NCBI RefSeq assembly: GCF_036711975.1
Contig: NC_091968.1
Coordinates: 930,001-994,000 of the forward strand
Direction of reading: 5' to 3'
DNA length: 64,000 nucleotides
Origin: Onthophagus taurus
Taxonomy: Eukaryota > Arthropoda > Insecta > Coleoptera > Scarabaeidae
Shown: positions 1,131 to 53,727 of the stretch, one piece after another
How positions within the stretch are numbered: the first letter of the stretch is position 1
Layout of the letters: each line of letters starts with the position of its first letter
Made by a program: the position numbers and the translations under genes
Notes under the pieces: model-generated
What the model was told of the DNA's origin: nothing
The model's database searches: none
Seen by the model: only the letters and a program-made list of their open reading frames with translations

Positions 1131-2330
1131 TTCAAAACTAAATGAAATGGAGAAATGGAGGAATGAAAATGACATTACACCTTCTTTGGAGGATTATTCA
1201 ACCGTTTCGGGTGAAACTGTGGAATTAAGTGATACACCGAGTATCAGTGAAATAATGGATTTATTTTTTGATGACGACTTTTTTCATTTACTTTTTTCCA
1301 AATGAAAAGTAGCATAAAAATTCTGCTAAAACTTTACCACGGACGGAAGTTACAACAAGCGACATGAAAAAGTTTCTTGGGTCGATGGGACAAACTAAAA
1401 AAGCTTGTTGGAGAGATTACTGCTCAACGGACCCTTTGGTTGAAGCACCAATATTTTCCTAAAACTATGAGCAGGATGAGGTTCGAGCCTTACATTTTTC
1501 CATCTCAGTGATAATGTACAAAATGCACCTAATAGAGGCAGACTTTGTAAAATTAGCTCCCCTCTAGCTTCAAAGCGTATAATCCGGCAAAGATTACAAA
1601 ATACGGTATTTTACTGAGAATGGTTTGTGAAAGTGAGTCTGGGTATATTTGCAACTTTCAGATTTATTCGGGTGGAGGACAAAAACTACAAGAAACTATA
1701 TTATCAGTCTTGCAACCGTATTTTGGTTATAGGCATCATGTATATCGAGATAATTACTACAACAACGTTTCTACAGCTGGTATATTATTAGAAAAGAAAG
1801 TACTGATATGTGGTGGCATACGAGAGAACCGTGGTTTGCCAAAGGTACTAATAGAAAAGTCTAAAAATCTTCAGAGAGGGCAATTATTCATGATGCGTCT
1901 ATGATATCAACTGAAAAGCGGAATAAAAATTATACAAATGATAAAGTGAAACCTTCGTGCATAATACAATACAATAAACACATGACAGGAGTCGACCGTG
2001 CAGATATTTGGCGAACAGTATCTATCGAAAAAGTATAAAGTGGTATAAAATCACAAAATGAACTAAGATACAAAAAATGTCTGCTAGAAGTAGCTAGGAC
2101 ATGGATGGTCTCATACTTCTAAAAGGGCTCTCTACAAAGATCCACCTTCCAGGCTTTCAAAAAAAACTAAAAAACCACATTTAATAGTTACTGGCGTAAA
2201 GACAAATCCAACTAGAAGATGTGAGTACCTATGCTCTTCAAAAGGAAAGCGCAGAGAAACGAGATACATTTGCAAAATTTGTTGTGTACCATTACACGCA
2301 TTTAAGATGTTTTCAAGATGACCGCCATTT
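1131..2330 (+). pseudogene. Decayed piggyBac-like transposase
   Basis: Broken frames in order resemble the DDE transposase of piggyBac/PGBD proteins. An acidic N-terminal part (1140-1305) is followed by a core stretch (1620-1904) with RDNYYNN and CGGIRENRGLPK, which match the conserved DNYY/F and C-G-T-x-R-x-N-R-G-x-P motifs of the family. Then MTGVDRAD (about 1981) and a C-terminal Cys-rich tail (about 2215-2325) follow. Stops and frameshifts separate the pieces, so it cannot make a full transposase. The N-terminal frame opens inside satellite A. This may mean that the satellite grew inside, or was captured by, such an element. Confidence 0.8.
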
Positions 2331-3780: not shown

Positions 3781-6700
3781 ATGTCTAAATCTCGAAAGGA
3801 ACGTGATATTTTCCGACCATTTACCCATAAATCGTTGGATGCTATCAAAACAACAAATGAAGAAAATGGGGTAAGTTATTTCCTTTTCCATTTCCTAAGA
3901 CACCAATTTAATTTGATTGATGTTTTGATTTTATCTCATTTCGTTATCTTTCAAACAAAAACATTAAACACAATTTAATCGCCGTTGAAATATTTAGAAT
4001 TTAAAAACGTCGTTAATGTTATCTTTAAGAGTTTATTAAATTGCTTAACATTATTTTGATATAAACATAGAAAGTGATAGGAAATGTTTCCGAGAAAGTA
4101 ATTTGTTTTTGCAATTATTTACGCTTTTCTTATGATCGTTAAAAGTAAAAGATCTACTTTTATATATTTTGCTGAAAGATCTTTTTGATGATTTCTCATT
4201 GTTCCCGGGAGTTGCTTTCCTTATTTTGTCTCCTCTCCTTTTGATTAGGATAGTTGTTAAACTCATTCCTGTCTCACTAATCAATTAGAAGCTCGCCATT
4301 ATTGTTAATAATGGATTAGTTGTATTATATATTTTTATCTGGAGATTTAATATATTCACAATCGAACTTAAAAAAAATAATTTAATAGATATTTAATATC
4401 ACATATTATGAGAAATTAGTTTTTAAAACATTTTTTGTATTCTCAGATTCAAAATGAGGATGAAACTCTTCAACCAAATCAGATGTATGAGCAGTTCTCA
4501 CCACTTCCGTTAAAGTTACGAGAAAGTTTTCCATCAAAACTCACCGCTACTCCACTTGAAGAAATCGACCCTTATTATAGGGACCAAAAAGTAAATGATA
4601 TAATAATGCCTAAATATTAATACAATTCTTCTTGCATTTTAGACATTTGTAGTGATCAATAACCGCAAGGATATATTTAGATTTTCTGCAACAAATGCTC
4701 TTTGGATATTTAGCCCTTTAAATCCCATTCGTAAATTAGCCATCAATGTTCTTGTACATCCGCTGTTTTCTTTGTTCATTTTCGTAACTATCTTGGTTAA
4801 TTGCTTGTTTATGATAATGCCTCTTACACCCACTATTGAGTCAACTGAGTAAGTTTTATTTTTTTTTGATATATTTAGTTATAAATTACTCATTTTTAGA
4901 GTAATATTTATTGGCATCTACACATTTGAAGCTGCAATTAAAATTGCGTCCAGAGGTTTTATTCTTCAACCATTTACCTATCTTAGAGATCCTTGGAATT
5001 GGTTGGACTTTATAATCATAATTTTAGCGTGAGTATTAACATAAATTAAATTGTACTAAGTAAAAATTGGTTTTTTAATTTTAGTTACATTTCTTTGGGT
5101 ATAGATCTTGGAAATCCCGCAATTTTGAGGGCCTTCAGAGTTTTAAGAGCTCTCAAAACCGTTGCAATCGTTCCAGGTTCATAAAATTTATTAATAAATA
5201 AATACTATTGTTATAAAATTATTAATCTTTTTGATAGGCTTAAAAACTGTGGCAAGCGCAGTACTCGAATCAGTGAAAAATCTCAAAGATGTAATTATTT
5301 TAATGATCTTTTCGTTATGTGTATTTGCTGTATTGGGTCTTAAAATTTACATGGGTGTATTAACTCAAAAGTGTATTAAAATATTTCCCTCTGATGAGTC
5401 TTGGGGAAAATTGACCGATGAGAATTGGTTCATCAGAGAATTCACCAATAACGAAAGTAAACTTTAAAAAATTTTAATTTTTAGGTTGCTCATTTATTTT
5501 TTTTTTTAGCAAATTGGTACTTTGATGGTTGGGATTATTCTTTGTGCGGAAATTCCTCAGGTGCGGGACAATGTCCCGAAGGTTATGTTTGCTTGCAAGG
5601 TTTTGGAAATAATCCAAATTACGGTTACACGAATTTCGATACGTTTGGGTGGGCTTTTCTATCAGCGTTTCGATTAATGACTCTGGACTATTGGGAAGAT
5701 TTATATCAAATGGTGAAATAAATTTTTATTATTTATTGTAACTAAAAATGTTTTTGCAGGTTTTACGTTCCGCGGGACCGTGGCACATATTATTTTTCAT
5801 AATGATAATTTTTTTCGGATCGTGTTATTTGATCAACTTGATTTTAGCTGTAGTGGTGGCAACTTATGATAAGTTACAGAAAAAAGAGGAAACAAGCGAG
5901 GAGGAGGTGACTAAAGCATGGATAATAATTATTTTAAATTATTATAAATGCTTTTTCTTCAAGACCAGCAAATCTTCTTCCGAATTAACAAACGATGAGG
6001 AGCAGGATGTTGAGTTGAAAAATGTTATGGTTATTAATGTCACTAAAGAAAACGTTGATGAAACTAATCAAGGAGGTAATGATAAAGATGATAAAGGTAT
6101 CATAGAAATAAACGATTCACTTTCGAAACAAATAATTGATTACCTTTGTGTATGGGATTGTTGCTCATGCTGGGTACAACTGCAGAAAATCCTTTCCGTT
6201 ATTGTCTTTAATCCGTTCTTCGAAACTTTTATTATGTTGTGTATTATTTTAAACACGCTTTTTATGGCACTCGATCATCACGATATGAGCAGAGCTCTAG
6301 AGACGACCTTAAGACTTGGAAATTATGTAATTATAAGACAACATTCATTTAATTTTTATTCATTATTTCTGATATTATTATTTAAATAGATTTTCATCGC
6401 AATTTATACGATTGAGGCCATCATAAAATTGATGGCTATGTCACCGAAGTACTATTTTCAAAAAGCATGGAACATTTTTGATTTTACCATAGTAGTTTTG
6501 TCACTGTTGGAAATGATGTTGGAAGGTGTACAAGGATTATCTGTTTTGAGAGCATTTCGATTGGTATGTCTTAAATAATTTATAATTATAATTAAGGAAT
6601 ACAACAAAAATGATAAATGTGTGTTGCCGCAAACATTATATTGTTATCAGGTTGACATTAAAAATTAATAACACAAAAATTGTCAAGATGCAATGAAGAA

Positions 6701-9700
6701 CCAGTTGCTGTACAGTAGTGTTTCCCAAACTTTTGCCATAATATATCGTCGGTATACAAGAGAATGTAACCAAGTCCAAAATTTTAGATTTTTAGGTTTC
6801 AGTGCTCATGTACCGGAAATTCAATATTATTTTTCTGGAAAAAATGAACAAGTCCAAAAATGCCATAATAATGCTTATAATTTCAAATTCCATAATGACC
6901 AAGTCCATTTTGTAAAAACCTGTACAGGAGAAAATGACTAAGTGGACTTAGTCATGTTTTCTTGTCAATATTTTTATCTCTAGGATTTGTCTTAAATTAA
7001 GATAGCCATGCATTATGCTTAACAAAAAAAAAAAACGAGAGAAAAGATACAGAAATATGATGTGACAGACAGGGAAAAGAGAGTGACGTTTGAAGTTTAA
7101 ACAGTTTATCATAACAATTATTACTTAAATCAAAATAAAATTGTGTTCTATGTTATTAGACTTAATCTTTGGTAACTATCTACACGTATTACAATAATTT
7201 TGTTTTTCGGATATTTAGTTTTAAAAAATAATAAGCTAATGCAATAATACCTTATTTTAGTGGTAAAATGAGTTGTTCGAAAAATTATTATAACAACGTA
7301 CAAGAAATTATTAATGATCTTAGGGATGTTCCGGTAGGATTTGCTACTAATTCTAGTAATACAAGCCCTACGACTTTAATAATAAATGAACCACTAGTAA
7401 ATCCTACGTAAGTTATAGAAAAACGTAGATAGATAATAAAAAATCCTCAAGGAACAAAACGTGAGAAAAACAAGTTATTAAAAAAATCGTGTTTAGCGTA
7501 TATTAATACTAAAGGCAAACAAATGCCTGCAAAGTCCCCTAGAAATGTAAATTGTGACAATTGCCGCTACAAATGTACAGAAGTATTTCCTGCAGATCGT
7601 CGACAAGATATCTGTAAACAGTATCACAGTCTATCCTATGACAGACAAAAGGACTTTATAATTAATACCGTTGCAACTTCTGAATGCCGAAGAAAACGAA
7701 CGAGGGACTCTAGTAGACCTGCAAAAAATGTCTCTAAAATTTATACATTTGTTAAAAACGGAGAAAAGAAAAGAGTTTGTAAAAATTTTTACTTAAAAAC
7801 CTTGTCGATAAGTCATGGACCGGTTGATTCTGCTATAATGAACATAGACACAAATGGAATAAATCATTCAATTCAAGATCGACGAGGAAAAAGTTTCCCA
7901 GCAAATAAAACTAAACCTGTCATTTTGAATGAGGTGAAGAGACATATAGAATTATTTCCTGTGATGGAATCACACTATTGTAGACGTGGAACTACACGGA
8001 AGTATCTTGACTCTACCTTATCCATTCTTAAAATGTATGAATTGTACAAAGATTTACAGATCAGCAATCAAAAGGATTTTGTTTCTCCAATAACATATAG
8101 GAGGGTGTTTTGTACGCAGTATAACTTATCTTTCTTCAAACCAAAGAAAGATCAATGTTTGCTGTGTGTTAAAGAAGCTAAATCTATTGAAAAATTAGAA
8201 GAATTTCTTTCTCACATAAAGCGAAGGGATGATGCTAATAGAGCAAAAGATTTAGATAAACAAAGAGCAATTCATGACAAAACTTTTGTATCAGTAAGTT
8301 TTGACTTACAGAGTGTCCTGCAAATTCCATGCTCCGATGTATCACCTCTTTACTACAGTCGAAAGCTATGTGCATACAATTTAGCAATTTATGAAGCAGC
8401 TCCACCAAATAAGGGATATTGTTACCTTTGGTCCGAAGTTGATGGCCAACGAGGAAGTTGTGAAATAGGTACAGCTTTATTGAAGTGGTTTAAAACTTTA
8501 CCTGATACTGTCAAAGAAGTGTCACTCTTTGTGGCGGCCAAAACCGAAATAAATACATTGCGGCTCTTTTGTTGTTTGTAGTCAACCAGTTACCTATAGA
8601 GATTATTACTCATAACTTTTTAGAAAAAGGTCACTCGCACATGGAGGCCGATTCGATGCATAGTGCAATTGAAAGTGCAAAAAAATACATTCCTGTATTT
8701 TGTCTTAATGATTGGAAGACAATTATGACAGTAGCAAGATCCAAGAGACGCAAAAATAAAACTTCTGGTGCCTACATTGTAGAGCAAATGACTTACCGTG
8801 ACATTATTGACTTGAAAGCACTCAATACATCTATACTACAAAATACAATTCGGGATGTAGGGGGAGAAAAAATAGAATGGTTAAAGATCAAACAATTAAG
8901 GTACGAAAAAGAGAAAAAAAGTTTATAATGTTCCGATACAACTATGAAGAAGAGAATAAAATGTTTAACATTAAAGGCAAAGGAAAAGGTAGGCCCAGTA
9001 ATAATATTCCAAAAGAAACTGAGTTAAAGAAATGTTATACTGAACCCTTGCCTATATCGATCAAGAAGAAAAACGATTTAATTCAACTTTGCCGTAAGGG
9101 GGTAATTCCGATCGAATACCATGGTTCCTTGAAAGGCAAGTGTCCAGAACCCTCACACAATGAATATAGTGATGAAGACATATGAAGTTGAAGCTAGTTA
9201 CTACTACTTGTTTAATTATAGTCTTTTTTAAGTTTAAATACATATTCTAGAATCTGCATTGTTCATAGAAACCATTACAAACCTATGCAGTTGAAATGAC
9301 TTACTGGTTTAGTATTTGCTTAAATTAATTATAGACTTTTTTAATTTAAAATACATATTCTAAAAACTATATTATTTATAAAAATCATTATAAACTAATC
9401 TCACGTAAAATAATTGATTTTATAATAAGAAGCAAAAATTAGAATACTAATAACTCAAAACCACTATCTGTGGACTTAGGCTCGTTACTACCATCTTCTG
9501 GTTAAGCTATCTAAGGGATTATTACTTAAATTTACCATCTTTTAGGTAAATTTATCTAATAGATAAACCCATCTACTAGCCAATGAGAGCGCGTAAAATA
9601 GCCGTAACCATGGTAATAATCCCTTAGATAGCTTAACCAGAAGATGGTAGTAACGAGCCTTAGTCATTTTCTCTTGTATACCGACGATATGTGTATCCCT

Positions 9701-12700
9701 TTTTAATTTGTTTCCAAGCCCACTTGCTAACTCTCCAAATGCTATGTTATGCATTTCAGAGTATCAGCATCATTTTTAGTAGCCGAACTTGTTATAACCT
9801 CATGAAGAGATGGAAACGAATCTATTTCTCGTTTTGCCATAAATTTAGTTTTGCGATGGCAGCATTTACTTTATCTTGAACGTGAAACAATGAAATTTCT
9901 TTGGCTTGTAACGATAAGTATGCTAGTTTACGAAGCGATTACCAGTCATGCAAACAATTTCTCAACTCAAATATATCATTAAAAAAATACTAAAGTTCAT
10001 GTCAAATTTCAAACAATCGATTAGAATTTTTTCTCGAGATAGCCAACGAACATCGGTATGAAAAAGAAGGTGGGTATGACTACTTTCCATTTCTTCACAT
10101 ATTTGCATATTCAACGGCAAATGATGGTTTGCCGAACTTTCCGTCTTTGGGTGGTCGATATAATTTTCGAAGATCCAACTTTCCTGGCATGTATGATAAA
10201 CTACTTTACACGGATTGGTCTTTTCTAAATGTGGAGGTTGATGCGGATGATGCTTTGCGAGCTTTTTATAAAAAGTTGTATGAGATTTTGGATTTATTTG
10301 TTCCTAAGAGATTGAGTCGGGGATCCTCATACCCTATTTGGTACACCCCAGAAATTAAGCGGCTAATAAAGTTGAAAGAGTATTATAGGAGGAAGTGGAG
10401 GAGAAGCAATAGTGCTTTCTATTCAGCGGAATATAAAAGACTGAGATGTTTGACTAAACAGAAAATCTGATGCGTATACTTCCTTTACTATTAGTGCTGA
10501 ACAATCGCTTAGTTCTGATCCCCGTAACTTTTGGAATTATATAAGACAGAAAACAACGACCTCTCGACTTCCTGGAAAAATGATGCGTGATAAGTCCACC
10601 TACACTGATCCTGAGAAAATAGTTAATGCTTTTGCAGATCAATTCTCTGGAGTATATTCTGGTGTCTCTGCTTATAACATGGTTGATGTACACTCTACGT
10701 ATCCTCCAGTATTTGTTGCCGATGTCACCGAATAAGAGGTTCTTCATTTCCTAAAAAGGTTACCTAATAAATTTACTGCTGGTGATGATGATCTTCCTGC
10801 ATTTTTCATTCGTGATTGCTGTGCAGTTTTTGCAGTTCCGCTTCATTTAATAATTAACCTATCCTTAAGCACTTGCTCGTTTCCTAAACTTTGGAAGCGC
10901 TCACGCATTGTTCCTGTATTCAAGCATGGCGAACGTACCAACATTACTGATTATCGACCAATATCGTTATTGTCCAATTTCGCTAAGGTATTTGAACAGA
11001 TTATTTACAGGATGATTTATCCACAGGTTCAGTCATTTGTGTCACCATATCAGCATGGGTTTATCAAGCGTCGTTCGACCATTACCAACGTCGCGGTGGT
11101 TACTGAGGTAATTTGTGAATCTTTGGATAGGGGCGGTCAGGTAGATGTGGTATACACTGATTTTTCTAAAGCATTCGACATGATTCATCATGACGTCCTC
11201 TTGTATAAACTTAGTGCTTTTGGCTTATCTCCTAAGTTTATGAAACTATTTGCCTCTTACCTATCGGGTCGTATAAATTATGTGTACTACAACGGTTATG
11301 CGTCTATGGAGTTTACGGCTAGGTCTGGTGTTCCTCAGGGCTCAAATCTAGTTATCTTCTTGAATGACCTTCTAGACAAATTTTCATCAAGCGTACTAGC
11401 TTATACGGATGATCTGAAACTATTCCGACCTATTTTTGCGGACCGTGATGTTGTCAGTCTTCAGTCGGATTTGGACGTCTTGGTGGAATGGTGTAACCGT
11501 TATCAGCTAAAGATTAATGCCAATAAGTGCGGTGCAGTTAGTTTTACACGCAAGCTGTCTCCTGTTCCATCTTCTTATTATATAGAAGGTGTTCTTCTTG
11601 AGAAATTATCTACAATCAAGGATCTGGGAGTAACTTTTGACCGCAAATTGTCTTTTGTACCTCACATCGAAAATATTGCATCTTCTGCAGCGAGGATGCT
11701 CGGTTTCGTTTTGCGCACCTCGCGAGCTTTTTCTGATATCGGTGTGTACAAGACCCTATTTTCGACCTTTGTATTGTCCAAATTGGAATATGGCTCTGTA
11801 ATTTGGTCGCCACATTATGTGTGTCATAGACTTATATTGGAGAGAATTCAGAGGAGATTTCTCAAATATTTGTCTCTACGCCTGGACGGATCATACCCGG
11901 ATCGTGGAATGGATTACGCATCCCTGCTGCGGCGTCACAATTTTTCTGCACTAGCCGTAAGAAGAGATGACCAGTGCATCAAGTTTTTGCAGAAGTTAGT
12001 GCAAGGTGAATTGGATTGTGGTTGGTTGTTGTCGCGGATCATTTTCGCGGTGCCTACGCGTGCAACACGTAGTACAAATCAGTTTTATTTGAGGAATTGC
12101 AGATCCAATGTTTTAGCCAACTCCCCGGTGCAGAGGATGTGTAAACTAACTAACAATCAATAATAGTGTAAGAGTGTTTATGTGAATTATATTTGTTTTA
12201 TGGCATGTGTTATTTTTTATTTTCTTTTTCTTGTAATATTGTCCTGTAATTGATCTTTGTTGGGCAATAAAGTGAATTATTATTATTATTATTCAAAAGA
12301 CGGTCTTTAATGTAGTTAACGATTTTCACGCTTTCATCCAAAAATAAAAACTCAAATAAAACTTCCAGAAAAGAAAAGTTGAGTTAGTTTTGGTTAGTTT
12401 TGTTTACAAATGTCAATCAACTCAAGTTTTCTTTTGAAAACGCAATTATAGCGTGAAGGAATGTTAAGACAGGTAGTTTTGTTTTGAATTCCAATTATAG
12501 CGTGAAGGAATGTTGGTTTTCTTTTGAACCCTAATTATACTGTGAAGAAACCGCAATTAGAGGGTGAAGAAATGTTAGGATAAGTCAGTTTTCGTTGGAA
12601 CTGCAATTATAGCGTGAAGGAACTTCAATTATAGCGTGAAGGAATGTTAGGATAGGTCAGTTTTGTTTTGAACCTCTAATTATAGCGTGAAGAAATGTCG

Positions 12701-15700
12701 ATTTTCTATTGAACCCTAATTATACCGTGAAGAAACCGTAATTATAACGTGAAGAAATGTTAGGATTGGTCAGTTTTGTTTTGAATCTCTAATTATAGCG
12801 TGAAGGAATGTCGGTTTTCTATTGAACCTCAATTATAGCGTGAAGGAATGTTAGGATAGGTCAGTTTTGTTTTGAACCTCTAATTATAGCGTGAAGGAAT
12901 GTCGGTTTTCTATTGAACCCTAATTATACCGCGAAGAAATCGTAATTATAGCGTGAAGAAATGTTAGGATTGGTCAGTTTTGTTTTGAATCTCTAATTAT
13001 AGCGTGAAGGAATGTCAGTTTTCTATTGAACCCCAATTATACTGTGAAGAAATCGTAATTATAGCGTGAAGAAATGTTAGGATAGATCAGTTTTGTTTTG
13101 AATCCCTAATTATAGCGTGAAGGAATGTCGGTTTTTTATTGAACCCTAATTATACCGTGAAGAAATCGCAATTATTGCGTGAGAAATGTTAGGATTGGTC
13201 AGTTTTGTTTTGACCTCCAATTATAACGTGAAGGAATGTCGGTTTTCTTTTGAATCCCAATTATAGCGTGAAGGAATGTCGGTTTTCTTTTGAGCCCTAA
13301 TTATAATAATAATAATAATAAATAAATTTATTGCCATAATAAGAAACAAAAAATACAAATTAAAGAAAATGTATACATTTAACTTAATGCATAAATACGG
13401 GCAAAAGGGTCGATTTATCGCGTAAGCGATATCTTCCAAACAACCCAATCAATCAGCAGTATACTAAGCTATATAAGAAAAACTATGAATAAACGGCAAG
13501 CTGCTATGCTAAACTTATGGTCACTAAAAACGGTGCATAATGATAGTTGCTGGAATAAAAGAAGAAGAGAAGAAAAGTAGAAGAAGAGAAGAAAAAGTTC
13601 TCAGGAAGATACTTGGAGAGCCAATAAATAACGTTTTAGGTGGTTTTTAAATGTTACAAGGTGAGGAATATTACGGATCTCAGCAGGCAGACTATTCCAA
13701 AGGGTTATTGCCTGCACAGCAAACGATTTATGGTAAATCTCGGTACTATGGGTCGGGGACATAAGCACAGAATCTAACTGAGATCTAGTGGGTAAACCAT
13801 GCGACGACAAGCGTTGAAATATACAATACAGATGCCTCGGGGTTTGATTGTGAAGAACAGTATATAACATAGTTAATATACGAAACGATCTACGGTTCTG
13901 ACAGCTTAATATCTGCAAATAATTACGGTATGGGGTTATATGTTGAGATCTCTCGAGATCAAAGATATACCGTATGCAGTTGTTTTGAAGTTTTTGCAGT
14001 TTGTTTCGTAGTGTTACCGAAAGATCAGGATATGCCGTGTCAGCATAATCAATATGGGGGAAAATCAGGGAAAAACAAAGATTACGACGGATCATGGGAG
14101 GAAGGAAGCAACGGAGACTTTTCAGTGAGTGGAAACAATGATAGACCTTTCTGCAGACGGATTGAATTTGAGGTTTCCAGGACATTGCAGAATCCATAAC
14201 CACCCCAAGTTTTCTAACCGTGTCTGACAGCTGAATAATGTCTCCGTCAAGCATTAAGTGAATGGATGAAAAATCATTCAGCTTTGCCAGTAAAGGTCGA
14301 CTGCCAAACGCAATTGCTTGAGTTTTAGCAGTATTTAATTTAAGGCCATAACTGTGTGCAATTGCTTCGGGAAAATCATCAATAGTTGTCGTAGTGTAAA
14401 TTTGGAGGTCATCAGCATACACATGATAATTACAAGAAATACAGTGGGTGACGGCATTAATGAAAATCGAAAAGAGCAACGGACCCAACACACTACCCTG
14501 GGGTACACCACATTTAATATCACAAGCAGACGAGAGCGCAGAATCAGCACGCACACACAAGGAACGACAGGAAAAGTAAGATTGAAACCAAGATAAACAT
14601 GAAGAGGTAAATCCAAGGGCAGCTAGTGACGCCATCAAAAGATCGTGATCAACCGAATCGAACGCCTTGCTAAAATCAAGTAATACAAGGATGGTAACAC
14701 AACGTTTGTCGCAAGCATACCTAATATCATCTGTAATCTTAATAAGCGCTGTTGTCGTGCTATGACCCTTACGAAAACCCGATTGAATGTCGTTGTGCAA
14801 GTTAAATTGTTGTAAATACTCTTGAACTTGTAGATAAACAAGGCGCTCGAGAGCTTTAGATAGAACAGATAAAATGGAGATAGAGAGAATTATACCATGA
14901 ACCATGAAGAAACCGCAATTATAGCGTGAAAAACTGTTAGGATAGGTCAGCTTTGTTTTGAACTCCAATTGAAGACCTTGCTGCAAGGTAAGTCTACATT
15001 TATGGTTTCCGAGATTATCAAAAAAAAGCTCTAGTATCGTTAGGTACCTTTTCTAAAAGGTCTCAACATTTTTGTCAGCACTCACTGAGCACTTGTGTGT
15101 AAGTTTTCACTTTAAAACTAGATGGTTTTTCGAAATTGCGGATTATTTTTAAATAAATAAAATGGATTTACCTCTTTCTTGTCTCCAAACTTCGTCATTT
15201 CATGAATATGTAACTAAAACTATATTAATTGAAAAAGAAGCTTTATTTATTGTAAAAGAAAATAAGCAATATATCTCTCATAGTATATTTATAGTTTTCA
15301 ATGCAATGTGTTAAAAGACTGATGGTCTTATTTAGGGGTTTTCTACCAGTCACTTCATCATAGTGACGTAGACTTATTCAGCTTTGCAGAATGTATGCAG
15401 AAGTTTTCGTCACTTCTCGAACTTTATATGTTCAAGAACTGCCCTCACATTCCATTTTATATAATAAACTGTTTACTTAAACGTTATTAAATGTAATACT
15501 GAACGAAACCAGCACGGCACTTCAACCTATACAGTGCTAGCGTAAAGTAACCCCCCCCCCCCCCCCCCCCGTTTAACTTCTGAACAGATTGAGATATCAA
15601 TATGAACAAAAAAACCTCAGTTTCTATATTTCATCAGCACAAATATTTTCTTATGGAAAATTTTGCTATCACTTTTAGTTTTTCTGAAAAATGGATCAGC

Positions 15701-18700
15701 TTTGTTTTTTTAAATGGAACACCCAGTATATTATGGCATCTTTCAAAAGAATAAAACAATACGAATTCAACGATACCTCACAATCAAATATCAGTTTATT
15801 AGTTTTTTACATAAAAATTAAACAAAATGCGGAATTTCGCCGGAAAAACCAACGTATCTTCGTTGACTACCTGTCGAGATACAATGAGCCAGATAAATGG
15901 TGGACGGTCAGTTAAAGGTCGGTCTACGCTCGGGTTAAGCAGGGTTAAAATCAGCAATTCTTTTAGAATGTTTTTATGAAACAATCAATACAAGAAAGGG
16001 ATAAAAAGAAAGTTCTTTTTAAAACTTGTAAGAAAAAATTGTCATAACAACAATTTTAAAGTTTGTAGGTACTTTGAAATTTTGTATTTAAGGCAGCATG
16101 CAAATATTTTCCTTCATTTCTATCTTTGAATTCTACCCGACCAAGTATAACCAAAGAAAGGCGAGATCAAAATGGCTAGAAGGAGTTTAGAGCACAAAAT
16201 CGAAGCAATTTTAATATTCGCTCGTGCTGACAGAAATCTACATGAAACAGAGCAACAATTTAAGGAACGATTTCCTGAACATCCAATTAGTCGAAAATAT
16301 TTAAGAGAACTTGTGAATTAGTTTTTGGAAACTGGAAGCGTCGAAGACCGCAAAAGAACTGGTCGTCAGATATTAACAGAACTTATTAATGCGCCCATGA
16401 TGTCGTCTGCTGGTATCGCATCAACGTGTGGAAATACTTAAGGAAGAATAAATATCATCCATTTTAAATAAAAATGCTTCATGAATTAACAGAAGATGAC
16501 CCTGATATAGAACAACAGAATTTTGTGAGCTAATGACAAGTATGGTTGAACGAAATCGATTATACTTGAAACAGATTTGTTTCAGTGATGAATGTACTTT
16601 CTTTTTGGGTGGAAAATTGAACCGGCGTGATGTTAATCCACATGAATATCGTGAAGTTATCACTCAATTTCCCTAGAAAGTAAATTTTTTTTCAAGACTT
16701 TTGCAAATTGTACAACAGAATCCTGACGATTTTGAAATGGAATTAGTGTTTCATCAAGACGGAGCATCTCCACATTATGCGCCAATGGTACGAAATTATC
16801 TTGATAAAAATTTTAATGGACAGCAAGATCACCAGATCTGACACCTTTAGATTTCTTTTTATTAGGTTATTTAAAATCCAAGGTATATGAAATTCCGTTG
16901 GGTAGTATTGAGGATTTAAAACAAAAAATTATTGACGTCTGCCAAAATATTGATCATCACATGTTAAGCCGTGTGAGAGAGGAAACACTACAAAGATGGT
17001 ACCACTGCCTAGAAGTTCAGGGTAATCATATCGAACAATTTACTTAATAGTTTGTTCTTAATAAATAAAAAATTCTTTTATTATTCAATAACAACACTAA
17101 GCCAATTTTTCAACCGTTACCTATACTAGCAAAATCTTTAATAAGAAAATTTCATTTCTTATATTGACTTTTTTTCTTTATAAATATTTTTTGATAAAAT
17201 ATGATTAATTCATAAATTTAATATACTTCCACCCAACTTTTATTTCATTTCTAAAAAAAATAAGTAATTGAACTTGCAATTTTAAATCCGTCTTAGCTCG
17301 AGCGTATACCGACCGTCCACCATTTACCTGGCCGATTGCATTTCGACAGGTAGTCGACGAAGATACGTTGGTTTTTCCGACGAAATTCCGCATTTTGTTT
17401 AATTTTTATGCGAAAAACTAATAACCCGATATTTGATTGTGAGGTACCATTGGATTCGTATTGTTTTCATCTTTCGGAAGATACCATAATATACTGGGTG
17501 TTTCCATTTAAAAAAACAAAGATGATCTATTTTCCCGAAAAACTAAAAGTGATGGCAAAATTTTCCATAAGACAATATTTATGCAGATAAAATATAGAAA
17601 CTGACGTTTTTTTGTTCATATTGATATCTCAATCTGTTCGGAAGTTAAACAGGGGGGGGTTACTTTACGCTAGCACTGTATAATTTGATATAATAAGTTT
17701 CCCATTTTTACACCATGTACGTTAAAAGTAGTTAAATATATAATTTGAGGTTATAAAACTAGACTTTGCAATTATAATTGATGCAAGAAAGAGGTAAGGC
17801 CGGACTTACATCATTAATACACCAATTAACTTATGTTAAAATAGCTTGTTAATTAGGCAACGAAATATAAACGAACTTGTATTTTATTTGCACCTAACAA
17901 CATGGAATAGTTGATAAGATCAAAAATTGGACTTACCTCTTTTTTGCAACAAGTTCTTCCATTATAGCGTGAAAGTATGTCGGTTTCCTTTTAAACTCCA
18001 ATTATAACGTGAACTTGGAACACCCTGTACAGAGTTCTGCTCCTGGTATTTCGTCAATTCGTGTGATCATTTATTTCTGTCCATGATATTTTGTTTTGTA
18101 CATTTTCTGTATTATCTTTATTTATAATATAACATGTTATTACAGCTTCGTATTTTACGATTAGCAAAATCTTGGCCAACATTCAACTTGTTATTATCAA
18201 TTATGGGCAAAACTATGGGTGCTGTTGGAAACTTAACCTTCATATTGTGCATTGTTATTTTTATATTTGCCGTGATGGGTATGCAATTGTTTGGACGAAA
18301 CTACATAGGTAAGTAACTCCAATAATTAATCACAAATACATCGTTCACATTAATTTTTAGATAACGTTGATAGATTCCCAAATGAAGAACTTCCAAGATG
18401 GAATTTCACAGATTTCCTCCATTCCTTCATGATTGTTTTCCGCGCGTTATGTGGGGAATGGATCGAATCTATGTGGGATTGTATGTTGGTGGGAGATGTA
18501 TCTTGCATTCTATTTTTCGTGGCAACTGTGGTAATTGGTAATTTTGTGGTAAGCATTTGATGTTACATATTTGTTTGGGTATATTAAGCTTTACTTTTTA
18601 GGTTATAAATCTTTTTATTGCTTTGCTTGTGAGTAATTTTAGTTCGAATTTTTTGTCGGCACCAACATCAAACGATGATACCAAAAAGATTCAATTATTA

Positions 18701-20886
18701 CCTAAACCCCGAGATTCATCTTCTTGGAGCAAGCTTCAACACAATTTTCTCCAATTAATTGAGAACAAATATTTTGAAATTTTCATCACCACTATAATTT
18801 TAATAAGCTGTTTAACATTAACATTAGAAGACATCAATTTATCTCAAAGGCCCGTTTTGCAAATCGTTTTATTTTACATCCATACAATAATCGCAGCTAT
18901 ATTTGTTATTGAAATGTTGATGAAATGGTTGGGAGTGGGATTAAAAAATTATTTTACGAACCCTTGGTGTTGGATTGATTTTATCGTTGTTATTGTGTCG
19001 TTAATCAATTTTATAGCAACATTATGTGGTGGTGGAGTTCAATTCGTCAAATTAATTCGACTTTTTAGAGCTTTATACCCACTCCGGGCTATATCTCAAA
19101 TAAAACGCATAAAAGTCGTTGTCACCACCTTAATCCAAACGCTTCCTTCTATTTTTAGCGTGTTTTTGGTATGTTTGATATTCTGGCTGATTTTTGCTAT
19201 TATGGGAGTTCAATTATTTGCTGGAAAATATTTCAAAGTAAGAACTTTACTTGATGATGTTGATTGATATAAATTTATTTTTTTTTTTTAATTTTTAGTG
19301 TGTTGATGAATACGAAACAACATTTAATTACGAAATTATCCCCGATTACAATGCTTGCATTACTCAGAATTATACTTGGGTTAATTCTCGGATGAATTTC
19401 GATCACGTGGGGAACGCATACCTTTCCCTGTTTCAAGTAGCAACCTTCAAAGGTTGGATTCAGATCATGAACGATGCAATTGACTCAAGAGAATTGTTCA
19501 AACAACCGATTAGAGAAACTAATATTTATATGTATTTGTATTTTATCTTTTTCATTCTTTTTGGCAAATTCCTAACTATGAATTTATTCATTGGAGTCCT
19601 CATCAATAATTACAATCAGGCGAAAACGCCGCTTGATAAATTTATGACTGATAAACAAAAAAAGTATTACAATGACTCAAAGATAATGGGATTTAGGAAA
19701 CCAGCAAAAGTTATTCCTGCACCAACGGTTTGTATTTGTATAAATTTAGGTTTATTAATTTAATATTGTTATTTTTTTTTTATAGTGGGGCCCACAAAAA
19801 GTTTTCTTTAAAATAGTAACAAACAAAAAGTTCGATATGGTTATTCTAATATTAATTGTTTTGAACATGTTAACGATGAGCATCGACCACTACCAACAGA
19901 ACGAAACATATGCTCAAATCCTCGATTATCTAAACATAATTTTTATAATAATTTTTACTATTGAGTGCATCATAAAAATTTTTGCTCTACGTCATCACTA
20001 TTTTAAGGACTCTTGGAACGTGTTCGATTTTGTCGTGGTCGTTTTATCTATATTGGGTAACATCCCATTTTGACACACAATTTCTTTGTAATTCTTTTTT
20101 TTTATAGGTTTGGTACTCACTGATATTATCGAAAAATATTTCGTATCCCCCACTTTACTCCGAATCATTCGAATAATCAAATTAGACCGTTTACGATTTT
20201 TAAATGGAACGAAAGGGATTCGATTTCTTCTTTCCATCTTAACCATGTCGTTCCCAGCACTCTTCAACATCTTCTTAGTACTATTTTTGATCATGTTCAT
20301 CTTCGCAATAGTCGGAATGTCGTTCTTTATGCACGTGAATGGACTCAACGATGTCTATAACTTCCAGACTTTCGGGCAATCCATGATTTTGCTATTTCAA
20401 TTATGTACGTCTGCCGGATGGGACGGCATCCTCAATGACATCACCAACGAGGAAGAGTACACAACGATAGCCGTAATATTCTTGTTAAGCTACTTATTGA
20501 TTTCATTCTTAATCGTGATCAATATCTGCGTTGTTATAATTATGGAGAATTTTTCGCAAACGAAAAATGATTTAGATATACTTACGGATAAAGATTACGA
20601 CATGTACTTTGAAATTTGGCAGCAATTTGATCCTAATGCAACATGCTACATTCGTCATGACCAACTTTCGGATTTTTTGGATGCACTCGAGGCTCCATTA
20701 AGAATCCCGAAGCCTAATAAGGTAAAGATAACAGAAATGGACTTTCCAATGCACAAAGATGATACGTTATTATGCGCAAATATTTTGCGAGCTCTTAAAG
20801 ATAATTTATGCAACGAATCGAAACCACACGCTTCAAATCATGGTCAAAGCAGTTTTAATTCTATTGTCACAAATGAAGGGGGATAG
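3781..20886 (+). CDS. Compact para-like voltage-gated sodium channel, 15 exons, 1,429 aa
   Basis: Exons: 3781-3870, 4447-4590, 4643-4848, 4900-5028, 5085-5176, 5238-5456, 5510-5712, 5760-6326, 6390-6563, 18146-18308, 18361-18548, 18602-19237, 19299-19727, 19786-20056, 20108-20886. All introns read GT..AG and the sum (4,290 nt) is in frame. Four six-helix repeats lie at about residues 110-405, 515-740, 775-1040 and 1090-1330. Pore residues are D (5686), E (18456), K (19449) and A (20413), the Na-selective DEKA ring, so it is a Nav1/para-type channel and not a DSC1/NaCP60E (DEEA) or calcium channel. Compared with para (about 2,000 aa), the I-II linker (about 107 aa), the II-III linker (about 40 aa), the turret loop of repeat IV and the C-tail are short, and the IQ motif is missing. 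The inactivation motif reads KFM in place of MFM. The S4 helices of repeats III and IV have lost charges. Conserved introns exclude a retrocopy. I infer a divergent paralogue of para. Expression and function are unknown. Confidence 0.9.
7523..9185 (+). pseudogene. DUF7869-type putative transposase, frameshifted
   Basis: The first frame (7523-8581) has Cys clusters CDNCRYKC and DQCLLC and the block [20 protein letters not shown], typical of the insect transposon protein family annotated as DUF7869. At about 8532 the frame breaks. The next block, [18 protein letters not shown], continues in another frame and joins 8569-8928 ([15 protein letters not shown]) and then 8877-9185. The residues normally just before CGGQN (SDN in relatives, as I remember the family) are deleted. 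An in-frame ATG upstream at 7268 is followed by stops. It is non-functional as it stands; the DNA transposon superfamily is uncertain. Confidence 0.7.
9479..9659. mobile_element. 181-bp MITE with 47-bp perfect TIRs
   Basis: The arms 9479-9525 and 9613-9659 are exact inverse complements starting GGCTCGTTACTACC. The element is flanked by a TTA direct repeat (9476-9478 and 9660-9662), a target-site duplication of the PIF/Harbinger type (3 bp, TWA). Perfect arms argue for a recent insertion. It lies inside the 6743-9690 transposon. Confidence 0.9.
10126..12292 (+). mobile_element. 5'-truncated LINE with (TTA)n tail
   Basis: It encodes the end of the endonuclease-RT linker (10129-10470, with [13 protein letters not shown]) and then a reverse transcriptase (10970-12163), and ends in AATAAA-like sequence and an (ATT)n tail at about 12270-12292. 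The clade is unresolved (Jockey/CR1/I-like). Confidence 0.85.
10970..12163 (+). pseudogene. LINE reverse transcriptase with deleted palm segment
   Basis: RT motifs are visible: TDFSKAFD (motif A), SGVPQGSN (motif B) and AYTDDLK (motif C, with YTDD for the usual YADD). After PQGSN the expected GPLLF block is missing and the sequence goes straight to VIFLNDLL, a small in-frame deletion. The 397-codon frame otherwise stays open to the C-terminal region with a WSPHY motif. It is probably inactive. Confidence 0.85.
12420..13303. repeat. Minisatellite with core AATTATAGCGTGAAG
   Basis: Irregular tandem blocks built from AATTATAGCGTGAAGGAATG followed by spacers such as TCGGTTTTCTATTGAACC and TTAGGATAGGTCAGTTTTG. 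More than 20 core copies are visible. Further copies lie at 14905-14970 beyond the inserted minus-strand LINE, and two at about 17960-18012. No coding potential. Confidence 0.9.
13304..14895 (-). mobile_element. 5'-truncated LINE on the minus strand, inserted in the minisatellite
   Basis: Its (TTA)n tail starts at about 13304 and its 5' truncation is near 14895, where minisatellite units resume, so it landed inside the repeat. The minus frame 14986-13601 (461 codons) has [27 protein letters not shown] and YADDLQIY, a well-preserved RT core. Between YADD and GLKLN the chain is shorter than usual, suggesting a deletion. About the first 33 residues of the open frame are read from minisatellite DNA and are not LINE protein. 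Confidence 0.85.
15000..15531. other. Intronic AT-rich sequence, nothing recognised
   Basis: No coding or repeat signature could be supported between the minisatellite end and the mariner terminus. Confidence 0.4.
15532..17678 (+). mobile_element. Mariner-type element with about 390-bp TIRs
   Basis: The left end CAGTGCTAGCGTAAAGTAAC matches the inverse of the right end ending GCTAGCACTG, both next to TA. The inverted similarity runs about 390 bp inward (to roughly 15930 and from roughly 17285). A run of 20 C (15551-15570) faces a run of only 8 G (17652-17659) in the other arm. The dead transposase is listed separately. Confidence 0.85.
16172..17047 (+). pseudogene. Broken mariner transposase
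   Basis: The helix-turn-helix part opens with [13 protein letters not shown]. Catalytic regions survive in pieces: [11 protein letters not shown] (first Asp), [11 protein letters not shown] (second Asp) and [20 protein letters not shown] (third). Stops (for example near 16319) and indels interrupt it. Confidence 0.8.
17679..18145. other. 3' end of the large channel intron
   Basis: It contains two minisatellite cores (about 17960-18012), then ACACCCTGTACAG, which resembles a transposon terminus, and the splice acceptor TTATTACAG before exon 10 at 18146. Confidence 0.6.
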
Positions 20887-21139: not shown

Positions 21140-22830
21140 TGCAAAAAGCCGGTTAGTTCATTGGAAAGAGGACATTCTTATTAACACTTTGGAAAATGTT
21201 CATACTCATATTCCAAGAAATGGATTTTATACGAATTTTTTTAAATTAATTGGCAAAAATTGCGAAGTTCGAAAAAATTGTCGATCATTTCAAAAATTTA
21301 TTTCTCAAGAACTGAAAGTGATTTTTCAAAATGGCTTGTTGCATTAAAAAGGGGACACTTTAATTAATAATTGGTTATATTTCCACAAGGATCCTTCAAG
21401 AAATTAATTTTATAGCGAATTTTAAAAATTATCGATGAAAATTGCAACATCGAAAATTTTATCAAAACTTCAAATATTGTTTTCTCAAAAACTAAAAATT
21501 ATTTTTCAAAACGGGTTGGTTCATTGGAAAGAGGACACTTTTATTAACACTTTGGGAAATTTTCATACTCATATTCCAATAAATGGATTTTATACGAAAT
21601 TTTAAAACTAAATCTTCGAAAATTGCAAAATTCGAAAAAATTGTCGATCATTTCAAAAATTTATTTCTCAAGAATTGAAAGTGATTTTTCAAAATGGCTT
21701 GTTGCATTAAAAAGGGGACATTTTAATTAATAATTGGTGATATTTCCACAAGGATCCTTCAAGAAATTAATTTTATAGCGAATTTTAAAAATTATCGATA
21801 AAAATTGCAACATCGAAAGTTTTATCAAAATTTCAAGTATTGTTTTCTCAAAAACTAAAAATTATTTTTCAAAACGGGTTGGTTTATTGGAAAGAGGACA
21901 CTTTTATTAACACTTTGGGAAATTTTCGTACTCATATTCCAAGAAATGGATTTTATACGAATTTTTAAAACTTAATCTTCGAAAACTGCAAAATTCGAGA
22001 AAATTGTCGATCATTTCAAAAATTTATTTCTCAAGAACTGAAAGTGATTTTTCAAAATGGTTTGTTGCTTTAAAAAAGGGACACTTTAATTAATAATTGG
22101 TGATATTTCCACAAGGATCCTTCAAGAAATTAATTTTATAGCGAATTTTAAAAATTATCGATGAAAATTGTAACATCGAAAGTTTTATCAAAATTTCAAA
22201 TATTGTTTTCTCAAAAACTAAAAATTATTTTTCAAAACGGGTTGGTTCATTGGAAAGAGGACACTTTTATTAACACTTTGGGAAATTTTCGTACTCATAT
22301 TCCAAGAAATGGATTTTATACGAATTTTTAAAACTTAATCTTCGAAAATTGCAAAATTCGAAAAAATTGTCAATCATTTCAAAAATTTATTTCTCAAGAA
22401 TTGAAAGTGATTTTTCAAAATGGCTTGTTGCATTAAAAAGGGGACACTTTAATTAATAATTGATGATATTTCCACAAGGATCCTTCAAGAAATTAATTTT
22501 ATAGCGAATTTTGAAAATTATCGATAAAAATTGCAACATCGAAAATTTTATCAAAACTTCAAATATTGTTTTCTCAAAAACTAAAAATGATTTTTCAAAA
22601 CGGGTTGGTTCATTGGAAAGAGGACACTTTTATTGGCACTTTGGGAAATTTTCGTACTCATATTCCAAGAAATGGATTTTATACGAATTTTTAAAACTTA
22701 ATTGGCAAAAATTGCAAAATTCGAAAAAATTGTCGATCATTTCAAAAATTTATTTCTCAAGAACTAAAAGCAATTTTTCAAAACAGCTTGTTGCATTAAA
22801 AAAAGGATACTTTAATTAATAATTGGCGAT
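21140..22830. repeat. Satellite A, second array
   Basis: About 4.6 units of the 363-bp repeat in the same orientation as 1-1130 (landmark at about 21430, 21793, 22156, 22517). Units here share variants such as AACTTAATCTTCG that are absent from the first array, so the arrays have evolved locally. Confidence 0.95.
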
Positions 22831-22839
22831 ATTTCAAAC

Positions 22840-25292: not shown

Positions 25293-25895
25293 ATTCATAC
25301 AGATTTTTTCTTAATTCATCCAGATCTGGGTTTTTAACTTTTTTTAAAGGTAAATCAATCAGTTTGTTTTTTTCCAACTCCTTCAATAAAGCCACATTTT
25401 TTTGTTGAAGGGATTCCTCATCCAATTTCGCATCATCTTCAGTGTTTTCTACCTCTTTAAGATTCGTGAAAGCTTCATCAATTTGTCTTAATATCGGATT
25501 TATATCTTTATATCCCATGTACACATAATACTGTAAAACGGATACATCTTTGAATGATTTCAATCTGAAAGAAATAATTTTTATTTAAGAAATTGCGACT
25601 TTTTTTCATTAACCTGTGATTCAAAATCGGGAGTACCATTAATAAATGGTGTTATTTCTTCTTCGGTACAAAATCCATAACATTTCATGAAATCAGGTAA
25701 TAATTTTTTAATAATCTCTTCTTCACTAACAATGAGATTATTTTATGTTATATGTTTAAATGTTATCCACATCTTTGGGGCTATGATATTAAGGATATCA
25801 TCTTCAGTTGTCTTGGAGTTTATTCCTGGATAATCGAGACTTATTAAGCCCTCCTTAATTTTTTTGAATGCTTAAATGGACATTTTTCTCACACT
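25279..25895 (-). pseudogene. HAUS7-like copy 3, inverted and broken
   Basis: On the minus strand, exon 1 (about 25895-25613) and exon 2 (25564-25279) mirror copy 2. Exon 1 has lost the codons for FLKWIF and carries deletions. In exon 2 a deletion after the LCVHG codons shifts the frame into a stop, while the coiled-coil part (INPILRQIDEAF onward) continues in another frame and keeps the C-terminal residues that copy 2 lacks. It stands tail-to-tail with copy 2. Confidence 0.75.
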
Positions 25896-27745
25896 CTAAA
25901 GTTTCCAAGTTCGAAATAATTCACTTTGAAATAAAATGCATTATCAGTTAGGTATTTTGGATCAATAAGAAACATTTTTTGTCCACAACAGACCTTTCTA
26001 TTGTTTCTACTTCTTGAGTTATAACTAATTTTGTTGTTGAAAACGTCAAATTTGCTTATTTTGATACTCTAAAGCTTCCAAGATTGAAATAACCTTCGGT
26101 GGGATAAAATGCATTATCAATTAAGTTTTTTGAATTAATAAGAAACATTTTTTGCCCATAACAGACTTTTCCATCGTTTCTACTTTTCGATTTATAACTC
26201 ATTTTGTTGTTGAAAACATCAAATTTGATTATTTTGAAACTCTAAAGCTTCCAAGTTTGAAATAACCCTCTGTGAGATAAAATGCATTATCAATTACGTT
26301 TTTTGAATTAATAAGAAACATTTTTTGCCCATAACAGACTCTTCCATCGTTTCTACTTTTCGAATTATAACTAATTTTGTTGTTGAAACGTCAAATTTGG
26401 TTGTTTTGATACTCTAAAGCTTCCAAGTTTGAAATAACCCACGGTGGGATAAAATGCATTATCAATTAAGTTTTTTGAATTAGTAAGAAACATTTTTTGC
26501 CCATAACAGACTTTTCCATCGTTTCTACTTTTCGAATTATAACTAATTTTGTTGTTGAAAACGTCAAATTTGGTTATTTTGATACTGTAAAGTTTCCAAG
26601 TTTGAAATAACCCACGGTGGGATAAAATGCATTATCAATTAAGTTTATTGGATTAATGAGAAACATTTCTTGTCTACAACAGACCTTTCTATCGTTTCTA
26701 CTTTTTGAGTTATAACTAATTTTAGTGTTGAAAACGTCAAATTTGGTTATTTTAATACTCTAAAGCTTCCAACTTTGAAATAACCCACGGTGGGATAAAA
26801 TGCATTATCAATTAAGTTTTTTGAATTAATAAGAAAAATTTTTTGCTCATAGCAGACTTTTCCATCGTTTCTACTTTTCGAATTATAACTAATTTTGTTG
26901 TTGAAAACGTCAAATTTGCTTATTTTGCTACTCTAAAGCTTCCAAGATTGAAATAACCCTCTGTGGGATAAAATGCATTATCAATTAAGTTTTTTGAATT
27001 AATAAGAAACATTTTTTGCCCATAACAGACTCTTCCATCGTTTCTACTTTTCGAATTATAACTAATTTTGTTGTTGAAAACGTCAAATTTGCTTATTTTG
27101 CTACTCTAAAGCTTCCAAGATTGAAATAACCCTCTGTGGGATAAAATGCATTATCAATTAAGTTTTTTGAATTAATAAGAAACATTTTTTGCCCATAACA
27201 GACTCTTCCATCGTTTCTACTTTTCGAATTATAACTAATTTTGTTGTTGAAAACGTCAAATTTGCTTATTATGATACTTTAAAGCTTCCAAGTTTGAAAT
27301 AACCCACGGTGGGATAAAATGCATTATCAATTAAGTTTTTTGAATTAATAAGAAACATTTTTTGCCCATAACAGATTTTTCCATCGTTTCTACTTTTCGA
27401 ATTATAACTAATTTTGTTGTTGAAAACATCAAATTTGGTTATTTTGAAACTGTAAAGCTTCCAAGATTGAAATAACCCACGATGGGATAAAATGCATTAA
27501 CAATTAAGTTTTTTGAATTAATAAGAAACATTTTTTGCCCATAACAGACTTTTCCATCGTTTCTACTTTTCGAATTATAACTAATTTTGTTGTTGAAAAC
27601 GTCAAATTTGCTTATTATGATACTCTAAAGCTCCCAAGTTTGAAATAACCCTCTGTGGGATAAAATGCATTATCAATTAAGTTTTTGGATTAATAAGAAA
27701 CATTTTTTGTTCATAACAGACTTTTCCATCGTTTCTACTTTTTGT
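25896..27745. repeat. Satellite B, about 173-bp tandem repeat
   Basis: About ten head-to-tail units. The landmark CCATCGTTTCTACTTTTCG recurs near 26171, 26344, 26516, 26862, 27035, 27208, 27380 and 27556, a spacing of 172-178. The last unit fuses directly into satellite A at about 27745. Confidence 0.95.
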
Positions 27746-53434: not shown

Positions 53435-53727
53435 TGTTTAATCCACGTTTTAGAAATCTAACCTCAAAATGATGTATGTCAAAATAACATAACCTAAAAA
53501 TTGAATTTAAAATAAATTGCATGATTAATTAATTAATAAAAGATTGTATATTAATAAAAAATTATTTAAAATTTATTTTTGGTGTAATAATTAGACTAAT
53601 TTTATTTATTTAAAATAATAATTTTTTTAGCAAGTACTACCGATTACCGATAGATGGAGCTGTTCGATCTGTCACTGTTCACCCTGTTCACTGTCAATGA
53701 AAATTCGTAAATTAATTCTGTTTTAGT
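53435..53727. promoter_or_regulatory. Shared head-to-head promoter region of DCAF13 and the ankyrin gene
   Basis: Only 293 bases separate the two divergent start codons. It must hold both 5' UTRs and core promoters, so a bidirectional promoter is likely. It is AT-rich; no clear TATA box can be assigned. Confidence 0.6.

Follow-up and report, generated by a model that had tools for sequence, protein, structure and literature searches.

The 64,000-nt window of DNA that we analysed, from the dung beetle Onthophagus taurus (Scarabaeinae), carries a complete and intact four-repeat Nav1 gene at positions 3781-20886 of the plus strand, here called the compact gene. Exon-by-exon re-derivation of the model, checked by script, gave 15 exons and 4,290 nt of coding sequence, with GT...AG boundaries at 14 of 14 introns, consistent phases, and an open reading frame of 1,429 codons that begins with the ATG at 3781 and closes with a single terminal stop at 20884-20886 (Table 1). 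The first-pass annotation, made from the sequence alone, had described 15 exons joined in frame, 1,429 residues and an intron of 11.6 kb; all three were re-derived as given, the intron measuring 11,582 bp, but the exon count and the length probably need revision. Within exon 8, a 57-nt segment (5907-5963) is in frame and bounded by GT and AG, and the nr protein P0001 lacks exactly the 19 residues that it would encode, so that a 57-nt intron is probable. On this comparison, the true product is most likely a protein of 1,410 aa encoded by 16 exons.

P0001 is the nr entry 'sodium channel protein para-like [Onthophagus taurus]' (1,409 aa) and is 99% identical to the window protein over the full length; this match, together with the 14 good introns, rules out chance open frames. 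The compact gene is already named in nr, although such a record does not prove that it is expressed, and it is a variant of a known channel kind. No description of it was found among the listed titles and abstract beginnings of the open-licence literature; a paper that brings up O. taurus together with sodium channels deals with Nav1 of another beetle, and the accessible part of PMC6259924 contains nothing on insect Nav1 duplicates. Ten residue differences and one deletion separate the window protein from P0001. At five of the ten, the window has lost a para state that P0001 keeps, and at two it has a state seen in para that P0001 does not have; the window's departures from para states kept in P0001 may reflect relaxed constraint.

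Table 1. Positions of the compact-gene exons, two introns and neighbouring open frames in the window
Feature	Position	Strand	Content
Exon 1	3781..3870	+	Start codon, N-terminus
Exon 2	4447..4590	+	N-terminus
Exon 3	4643..4848	+	Repeat I S1-S2
Exon 4	4900..5028	+	Repeat I S2-S3
Exon 5	5085..5176	+	Repeat I S3-S4
Exon 6	5238..5456	+	Repeat I S4-S5 linker, S5, extracellular loop
Exon 7	5510..5712	+	Repeat I pore, D of DEKA (LDYWE)
Exon 8	5760..6326	+	Repeat I S6, short I-II linker, repeat II S1; probably 5760-5906 + 5964-6326
Probable 57-nt GT-AG intron within exon 8	5907..5963	+	Absent from nr protein
Exon 9	6390..6563	+	Repeat II S2 to first half of S4
11,582-bp intron	6564..18145	+	Inside repeat II S4; transposon remnants abundant
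Exon 10	18146..18308	+	Remainder of repeat II S4, S4-S5 linker, S5
Exon 11	18361..18548	+	Repeat II pore, E of DEKA (CGEWI), start of S6
Exon 12	18602..19237	+	Remaining repeat II S6, 33-aa II-III linker, repeat III S1-S5, k-type S3-S4 segment
Exon 13	19299..19727	+	Repeat III pore, K of DEKA (TFKGW), S6, III-IV linker with KFM replacing MFM
Exon 14	19786..20056	+	III-IV linker end, repeat IV S1-S3
Exon 15	20108..20886	+	Repeat IV S4 (one-residue deletion), pore, A of DEKA (TSAGW), turret absent, EF-hand region, stop ahead of any IQ motif
PARP catalytic domain frame	35563-36171	-	
Enoyl-CoA hydratase frame	43658-44602	+	
WD40 protein frame	52602-53360	-	
Ankyrin protein frame	53716-54426	+	
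SH2 protein frame	61731-62831	-	

The gene is embedded in satellite-like repeats, with arrays of 363/364-bp units flanking it on both sides (1-1132, 21151-22835 and 27771-29126). Further tandem arrays have a period of 173 bp (25893-27742) or 190 bp (31221-35321, about 21.6 copies). The large intron holds two RVT_1 reverse-transcriptase frames, a 382-aa frame with no Pfam match and fragments whose translation is mariner-like, in the intervals 7433-8578, 10736-12160 (+), 13604-15052 (-) and 16151-17044; it also contains tandem repeats. A 360-aa open frame with a DUF4817 helix-turn-helix (60104-61183, minus strand) and a DDE_Tnp_1_7 transposase fragment (1557-1901, plus strand) lie outside the gene. 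The neighbouring enoyl-CoA hydratase, WD40, ankyrin, SH2 and PARP frames can serve for synteny with other beetles. When the window was searched by tblastn with both O. taurus channel proteins, P0001 and the ordinary para described below, no further channel exon, no hidden turret or IQ exon and no second channel was detected, and the nine non-exon matches all had E values of at least 0.24.

Protein anatomy beside the para of the same species

The next-best match after P0001 is P0002, 'sodium channel protein para isoform X6 [Onthophagus taurus]', a conventional para of 2,046 aa. With the whole protein as query, P0001 scored 3,180 bits, ahead of the O. taurus para with 2,073 (best 120 of 6,588 matches); with the divergent repeat III of P0001 as query, P0001 scored 669 bits and was followed by an Anopheles para at 461 (best 120 of 1,753). 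Identity to the O. taurus para is 68.3% of 1,403 columns, against 65.8-67.2% for five other paras and 53.8-61.3% for three compact channels of other insects. Since an ordinary para is recorded in the same species, the compact gene is a paralogue, and the sequence comparison shows one that kept the pore and lost regulatory parts. That it would be a separate paralogue of para had been proposed in the first-pass annotation, and the protein records bear this out with P0002 as the second para. The compact gene is not the sole para-type gene of its species, P0002 being a separate protein among those records. It is para-like in build throughout, as an orthologue of para in a fast-evolving species would be; that reading is nevertheless contradicted by the complete ordinary para P0002 under the same species name and by the 99% identity of the window protein to that species' para-like record, and we regard it as scarcely credible unless the records of two organisms have been mixed under one name.

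DSC1 (Nav2) channels have a four-repeat Nav-like topology, as does the compact gene. Their ring is given as DEEA in the accessible text of PMC7017565. An assignment to DSC1 was ruled out because the compact gene has the ring DEKA, with lysine in repeat III.

The DEKA ring is intact (LDYWE, CGEWI, TFKGW, TSAGW), and the re-derived translation and alignment confirmed the initial identification of a sodium-selective DEKA filter in a para-like channel. The linkers are strongly shortened. In alignment columns, the I-II linker has 67 aa against 318 in the O. taurus para, or 86 if the 19 disputed residues are counted, both below the earlier figure of about 107 aa; the II-III linker has 33 aa against 271. 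The reported absences of the repeat-IV turret and of the IQ motif both held: a 15-column gap stands in place of the turret in the alignment to the O. taurus para, and the C-terminal tail has 21 residues after the EF-hand region and does not reach the IQ segment. Pfam recognised PF00520 (Ion_trans) in four stretches of P0001 (775 bits), whereas Na_trans_cytopl and Na_trans_assoc were found in P0002 and neither in P0001. The two O. taurus channels share the four repeats, the EF-hand region and a 15-residue stretch in the repeat I loop; the compact gene differs in the absence of these two Pfam domains, of the IQ tail and of the turret, and in the replacement of MFM by KFM.

Parts concerned with gating are altered. 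The S4 charges are kept in repeats I and II, with one lysine changed to arginine in repeat II. In repeat III, one S4 arginine has become tyrosine and a further arginine just after S4 has become glutamine, and in repeat IV one residue is deleted after the fourth charge. In the III-IV linker, which has four residues fewer than that of para, KFM stands in place of MFM, with phenylalanine and methionine retained; the MFM/IFM inactivation particle of Nav1 is thus not present as such. The S6 of repeat II (18531-18613) reads IGNFVVIN, and at the site of its phenylalanine the other para and compact rows shown have leucine, except P0001; we take this site to be the kdr position L1014 of para.

Divergence is unevenly distributed. 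Membrane segments are 59-88% identical to those of the O. taurus para, and the same segments are 91-100% identical between the O. taurus and locust paras. The extracellular loops are 71-75% identical to the O. taurus para, about the divergence between the O. taurus and locust paras (69-74%). The acceleration thus struck a core that is normally frozen. Voltage sensors I-IV show 77, 72, 59 and 67% identity to the O. taurus para, the III-IV linker 56% and the C-terminal domain 61%. The P-loop/S6 stretches are on the whole better preserved than the voltage sensors, with 79, 87 and 85% in repeats I-III; in repeat IV the P-loop has 77% and the turret plus S6 64%. From their common node, the compact-gene branch is about 36 times as long as that of the O. 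taurus para (1.19 vs 0.033).

Compact channels in other insects and the origin of the gene

The first-pass annotation had started from the premise that insects have one Nav1 and one DSC1 gene. This is incomplete: compact Nav1-like proteins also occur in Periplaneta, Manduca and Ischnura, and an aphid sodium channel is split over two genes, as stated in the available part of PMC4954994. The best solved-structure match of P0001 is NavPaS (PaFPC1) of Periplaneta americana (PDB 5x0m, 1,648 bits; the next non-chimera, a Nav 'type 8' entry, has 1,395). A search with NavPaS, in which a length limit of about 1,590 aa excluded full para, returned the NavPaS chimera, P0001 and Manduca sexta P0223 and, below shortened Culex para isoforms, Ischnura elegans P0240 among the 120 listed of 707 matches. 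By name and by inspection of five sequences, four insect species with a compact channel were recognised among those 120. All four channels have shortened linkers, short tails and a DEKA ring; the compact gene, with short I-II and II-III linkers, DEKA and no IQ, has the full compact form.

NavPaS resembles the compact gene in its shortened I-II and II-III linkers (70 and 102 aa), in lacking IQ, in the DEKA ring, in an altered inactivation motif, in the sequences TLDYWED and FRALCGEW near the filter, and in having the same three Pfam families, without Na_trans_cytopl and Na_trans_assoc. Their identity is, however, only 53.8% over 1,267 columns, below the value for the O. taurus para. The repeat-IV turret and an unbroken S4-IV are present in NavPaS but not in the compact gene, and the NavPaS inactivation motif is ATD (accessible portions of PMC7957711 and PMC8996304) rather than KFM. 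In P0223 (1,561 aa) and P0240 (1,426 aa), the I-II linker has 66 and 123 aa and the II-III linker 142 and 64 aa, respectively, with short tails and DEKA; unlike the compact gene, both retain the turret and MFM and have an l-type repeat III S3-S4 segment. Annotation faults are possible in both, since repeat III S6 is disturbed in P0223 and the P0240 record breaks off early in the C-terminal domain.

A quick joint tree with distant rows showed a risk of long-branch effects, and later trees used fewer rows: 23 of 36 in the C20 joint tree, 26 of 36 for the compact gene alone, and 23 of 36 each for NavPaS, Ischnura and Manduca alone. The joint AU tests, regional signal, simulations and half-gene trees used the 23 joint-tree rows, and the LG+F+R4 and reduced tests of the compact gene alone used 20. 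Partial and distant rows were omitted from the careful trees, for example the short copepod P0287, which is in the quick tree and serves as an outgroup in the state-sharing count. The NavPaS repeat-IV sensor was masked because its full-length record, P0222, is a chimera with human Nav1.7, so that VSD-IV has 38 trimmed columns in the regional and half-gene analyses. The paras used include none from Lepidoptera or Odonata and one partial sequence from Blattodea, and this restricts how well the other three compact channels can be placed.

In the quick joint tree, the C20 joint tree and the tree of the compact gene alone, rooted on other Nav1 channels, the compact gene lies inside or as sister to the insect paras. 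Placed alone, it falls inside the beetle clade (100/100), with the scarab and staphylinoid paras (91/96). The proposed Nav tree with other beetles thus sets it within the beetle paras, while joint trees group the compact channels. Under LG+F+R4, the compact gene alone is sister to the O. taurus para, and a position outside the insect paras is rejected (AU p 0.008), while positions outside the beetles (p 0.31) or beside the Trypoxylus para (p 0.13) are not. Diagnostic columns are few. Of 81 beetle-specific columns, 10 have the beetle state in the compact gene, 1 in NavPaS, 4 in Ischnura and 2 in Manduca. The 2 matches of the compact gene among 25 scarab-specific columns do not exceed those of NavPaS or Ischnura. 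The 25 strict beetle columns divide into 2 derived, 1 ancestral, 3 with a third state and 19 gaps; the 31 O. taurus columns into 3, 6, 5 and 17; and the 61 Trypoxylus control columns into 2, 15, 15 and 29. In the extracellular loops, identity is 74% to the O. taurus para and 73% to that of Nicrophorus; a beetle para was best in 1,545 of 2,000 resamplings and that of O. taurus in 709, a weak lean.

On balance, we somewhat favour the view that the compact gene is a second Nav1 that arose from para by duplication in the beetle line, evolved far faster and reached a NavPaS-like form, probably still as a sodium-selective channel. The ordinary para would have been duplicated after the beetle line existed, most likely after the split from rhinoceros beetles, and the copy would then have changed far faster than para, coming to resemble the cockroach NavPaS. 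The suggestion in the first-pass annotation that the gene is lineage-specific is the better-supported reading, but it is unproven.

The evidence on the origin conflicts, and the joint trees speak against a recent duplicate. In the quick joint tree, the four compact channels formed one clade (SH-aLRT 99), and the 24 insect para rows together were its sister. This grouping speaks for a single ancient compact Nav1 paralogue of the NavPaS type that survives in a small number of lineages, such as damselflies, cockroaches, moths and dung beetles, and has disappeared from most others; the compact gene would be its beetle member, and gene conversion from para may have overwritten parts of it. The C20 joint tree also grouped the four (98/96), although nested in Holometabola beside the beetles (89/85), which cannot be right for a group that includes cockroach and damselfly genes; the compact channels are among the longest branches in the joint trees. 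Moreover, when placed singly, the compact gene goes to the beetles and NavPaS, Ischnura and Manduca attach at other, weakly resolved points. In the joint AU test the compact clade was best, with p 0.20-0.23 for the ancient history and p 0.107-0.122 for sisterhood to the O. taurus para, so that no history was rejected; the compact grouping was 20 log units better than kinship with the O. taurus para under LG+F+R4 and 15 under C10.

By region, support for the compact group was found in both voltage sensor I (+11.2) and voltage sensor II (+14.5), in the repeat I pore (+6.3) and in sensor III (+3.3). The repeat IV pore (-5.7), the repeat III pore (-4.0) and the I-II linker (-2.5) favoured the O. 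taurus para. With all compact rows present, the N-terminal half grouped the four compact rows at 99, and the C-terminal half placed the compact gene as sister to the O. taurus para with a support of 67. With the other compact rows removed, both halves gave that sister relation, each weakly supported (75 and 47). An ancient paralogue with conversion by para would also fit this half-and-half pattern. Five columns hold a state common to the four compact rows and absent from 22 of 22 insect para rows, all of them in voltage sensor II. Pairwise sharing of non-para states among the compact rows is 26-32%, moderately above other channels, with 12-31% for ten outgroup rows and 18-40% for two aphids (few columns). 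Of the para rows, the horseshoe crab shares most lone states with the compact gene (17 columns; O. taurus 3), and it is also top for the other compact rows.

Alignments were simulated under C20, and scoring, on fixed trees, used LG+F+R4, with 8 or 24 sets each. The joint difference, observed at +20, was -54 to -114 and always negative when the simulated tree had the O. taurus para as sister (24 and 8 sets), and +82 to +157 for the free and ancient trees (8 sets each). In the reduced test, the corresponding values were +74 to +104, -19 to -57 and -41 to -74, with +21 observed. Because the simulated values miss those observed, neither simple history under these models yields the observed mixture. 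Against the ancient-paralogue history, all 8 ancient and 8 free-tree simulations were negative in the reduced test.

Para has two alternative exons in repeat III, named k and l. The S3-S4 segment is of type k in the compact gene and NavPaS and of type l in the Manduca and Ischnura channels, and this difference leans towards separate origins. The columns that unite the compact rows lean the same way: they are mostly membrane residues of the voltage sensors, in which parallel change under similarly relaxed or altered gating is conceivable. Given also how few species (four) were recognised among the 120 listed NavPaS matches, we consider a single ancient paralogue rather unlikely. That insects have repeatedly remade spare copies of para, with short linkers, no IQ, a conserved pore, parallel changes in sensors I and II and an inactivation gate that is altered in the beetle and the cockroach, so that dung beetle, hawkmoth, damselfly and NavPaS would be independent cases, is a serious possibility, although we would put it at somewhat less than an even chance.

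Selection, proposed function and significance

Neutral drift of the coding sequence to the 31.7% amino-acid divergence seen here was simulated in 200 runs and gave a mean of 30.7 stops (minimum 18), whereas none is observed. The 1,410 codons contain neither a stop nor a frameshift, and the splice sites are all good. The contrast of 0 with about 31 expected stops argues against a pseudogene, in agreement with the earlier argument from in-frame exons, and argues for selection through most of the gene's history; it says nothing for the present state.

It is possible, in our estimate improbable, that the compact gene is a decaying or non-conducting duplicate, whose product may fold and reach the membrane without passing current, or which is turning into a pseudogene. 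NavPaS, the channel closest in form, gave no sodium current in Xenopus oocytes according to the accessible text of PMC13087302. The deletion in sensor IV, the charge loss in sensor III, the KFM gate, the degree of change in membrane segments that are nearly invariant between the beetle and locust paras, and the ten amino-acid changes and one deletion relative to P0001 all point in the same direction. The open frame, the good splice sites, the untouched DEKA ring and P-loop/S6 stretches mostly better kept than the voltage sensors speak against decay.

The compact channel is most likely sodium-selective and voltage-gated, given that the pore, the DEKA filter and the charged sensors I and II are kept, and it would conduct sodium on depolarisation. 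Its gating has probably changed, including the coupling of sensors III and IV. With an arginine lost from sensor III, the charge spacing broken in sensor IV and KFM in a shorter linker, fast inactivation is probably slower or incomplete. Lacking the long linkers and the IQ segment, the channel would be expected to be largely free of regulation by phosphorylation and calmodulin. Its role could be to carry a small persistent current in some cells, and the action-potential channel of the beetle would remain P0002.

Insects are generally regarded as having para as their only Nav1, a strongly conserved channel on which pyrethroids and many venoms act. Where a beetle has, in addition to para, another Nav1 whose filter is intact and whose gating parts are altered, neither sodium current nor drug sensitivity has to depend on one gene. 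The resemblance to NavPaS matters for structural biology as well. The O. taurus para is 81.9% identical to the locust and 81.8% to the Hermetia para, and the identity of NavPaS to the six paras in the comparison is 57.0-58.7%. The cockroach BgNav1-1a is called orthologous to NavPaS at about 59% identity in the available part of PMC13087302, a value which, against about 82% among paras, suggests that NavPaS too is a paralogue. If insects have indeed repeatedly remade spare copies of para, NavPaS, the cryo-EM model of an insect channel, would be a specialised paralogue and not the orthologue of the insecticide target.
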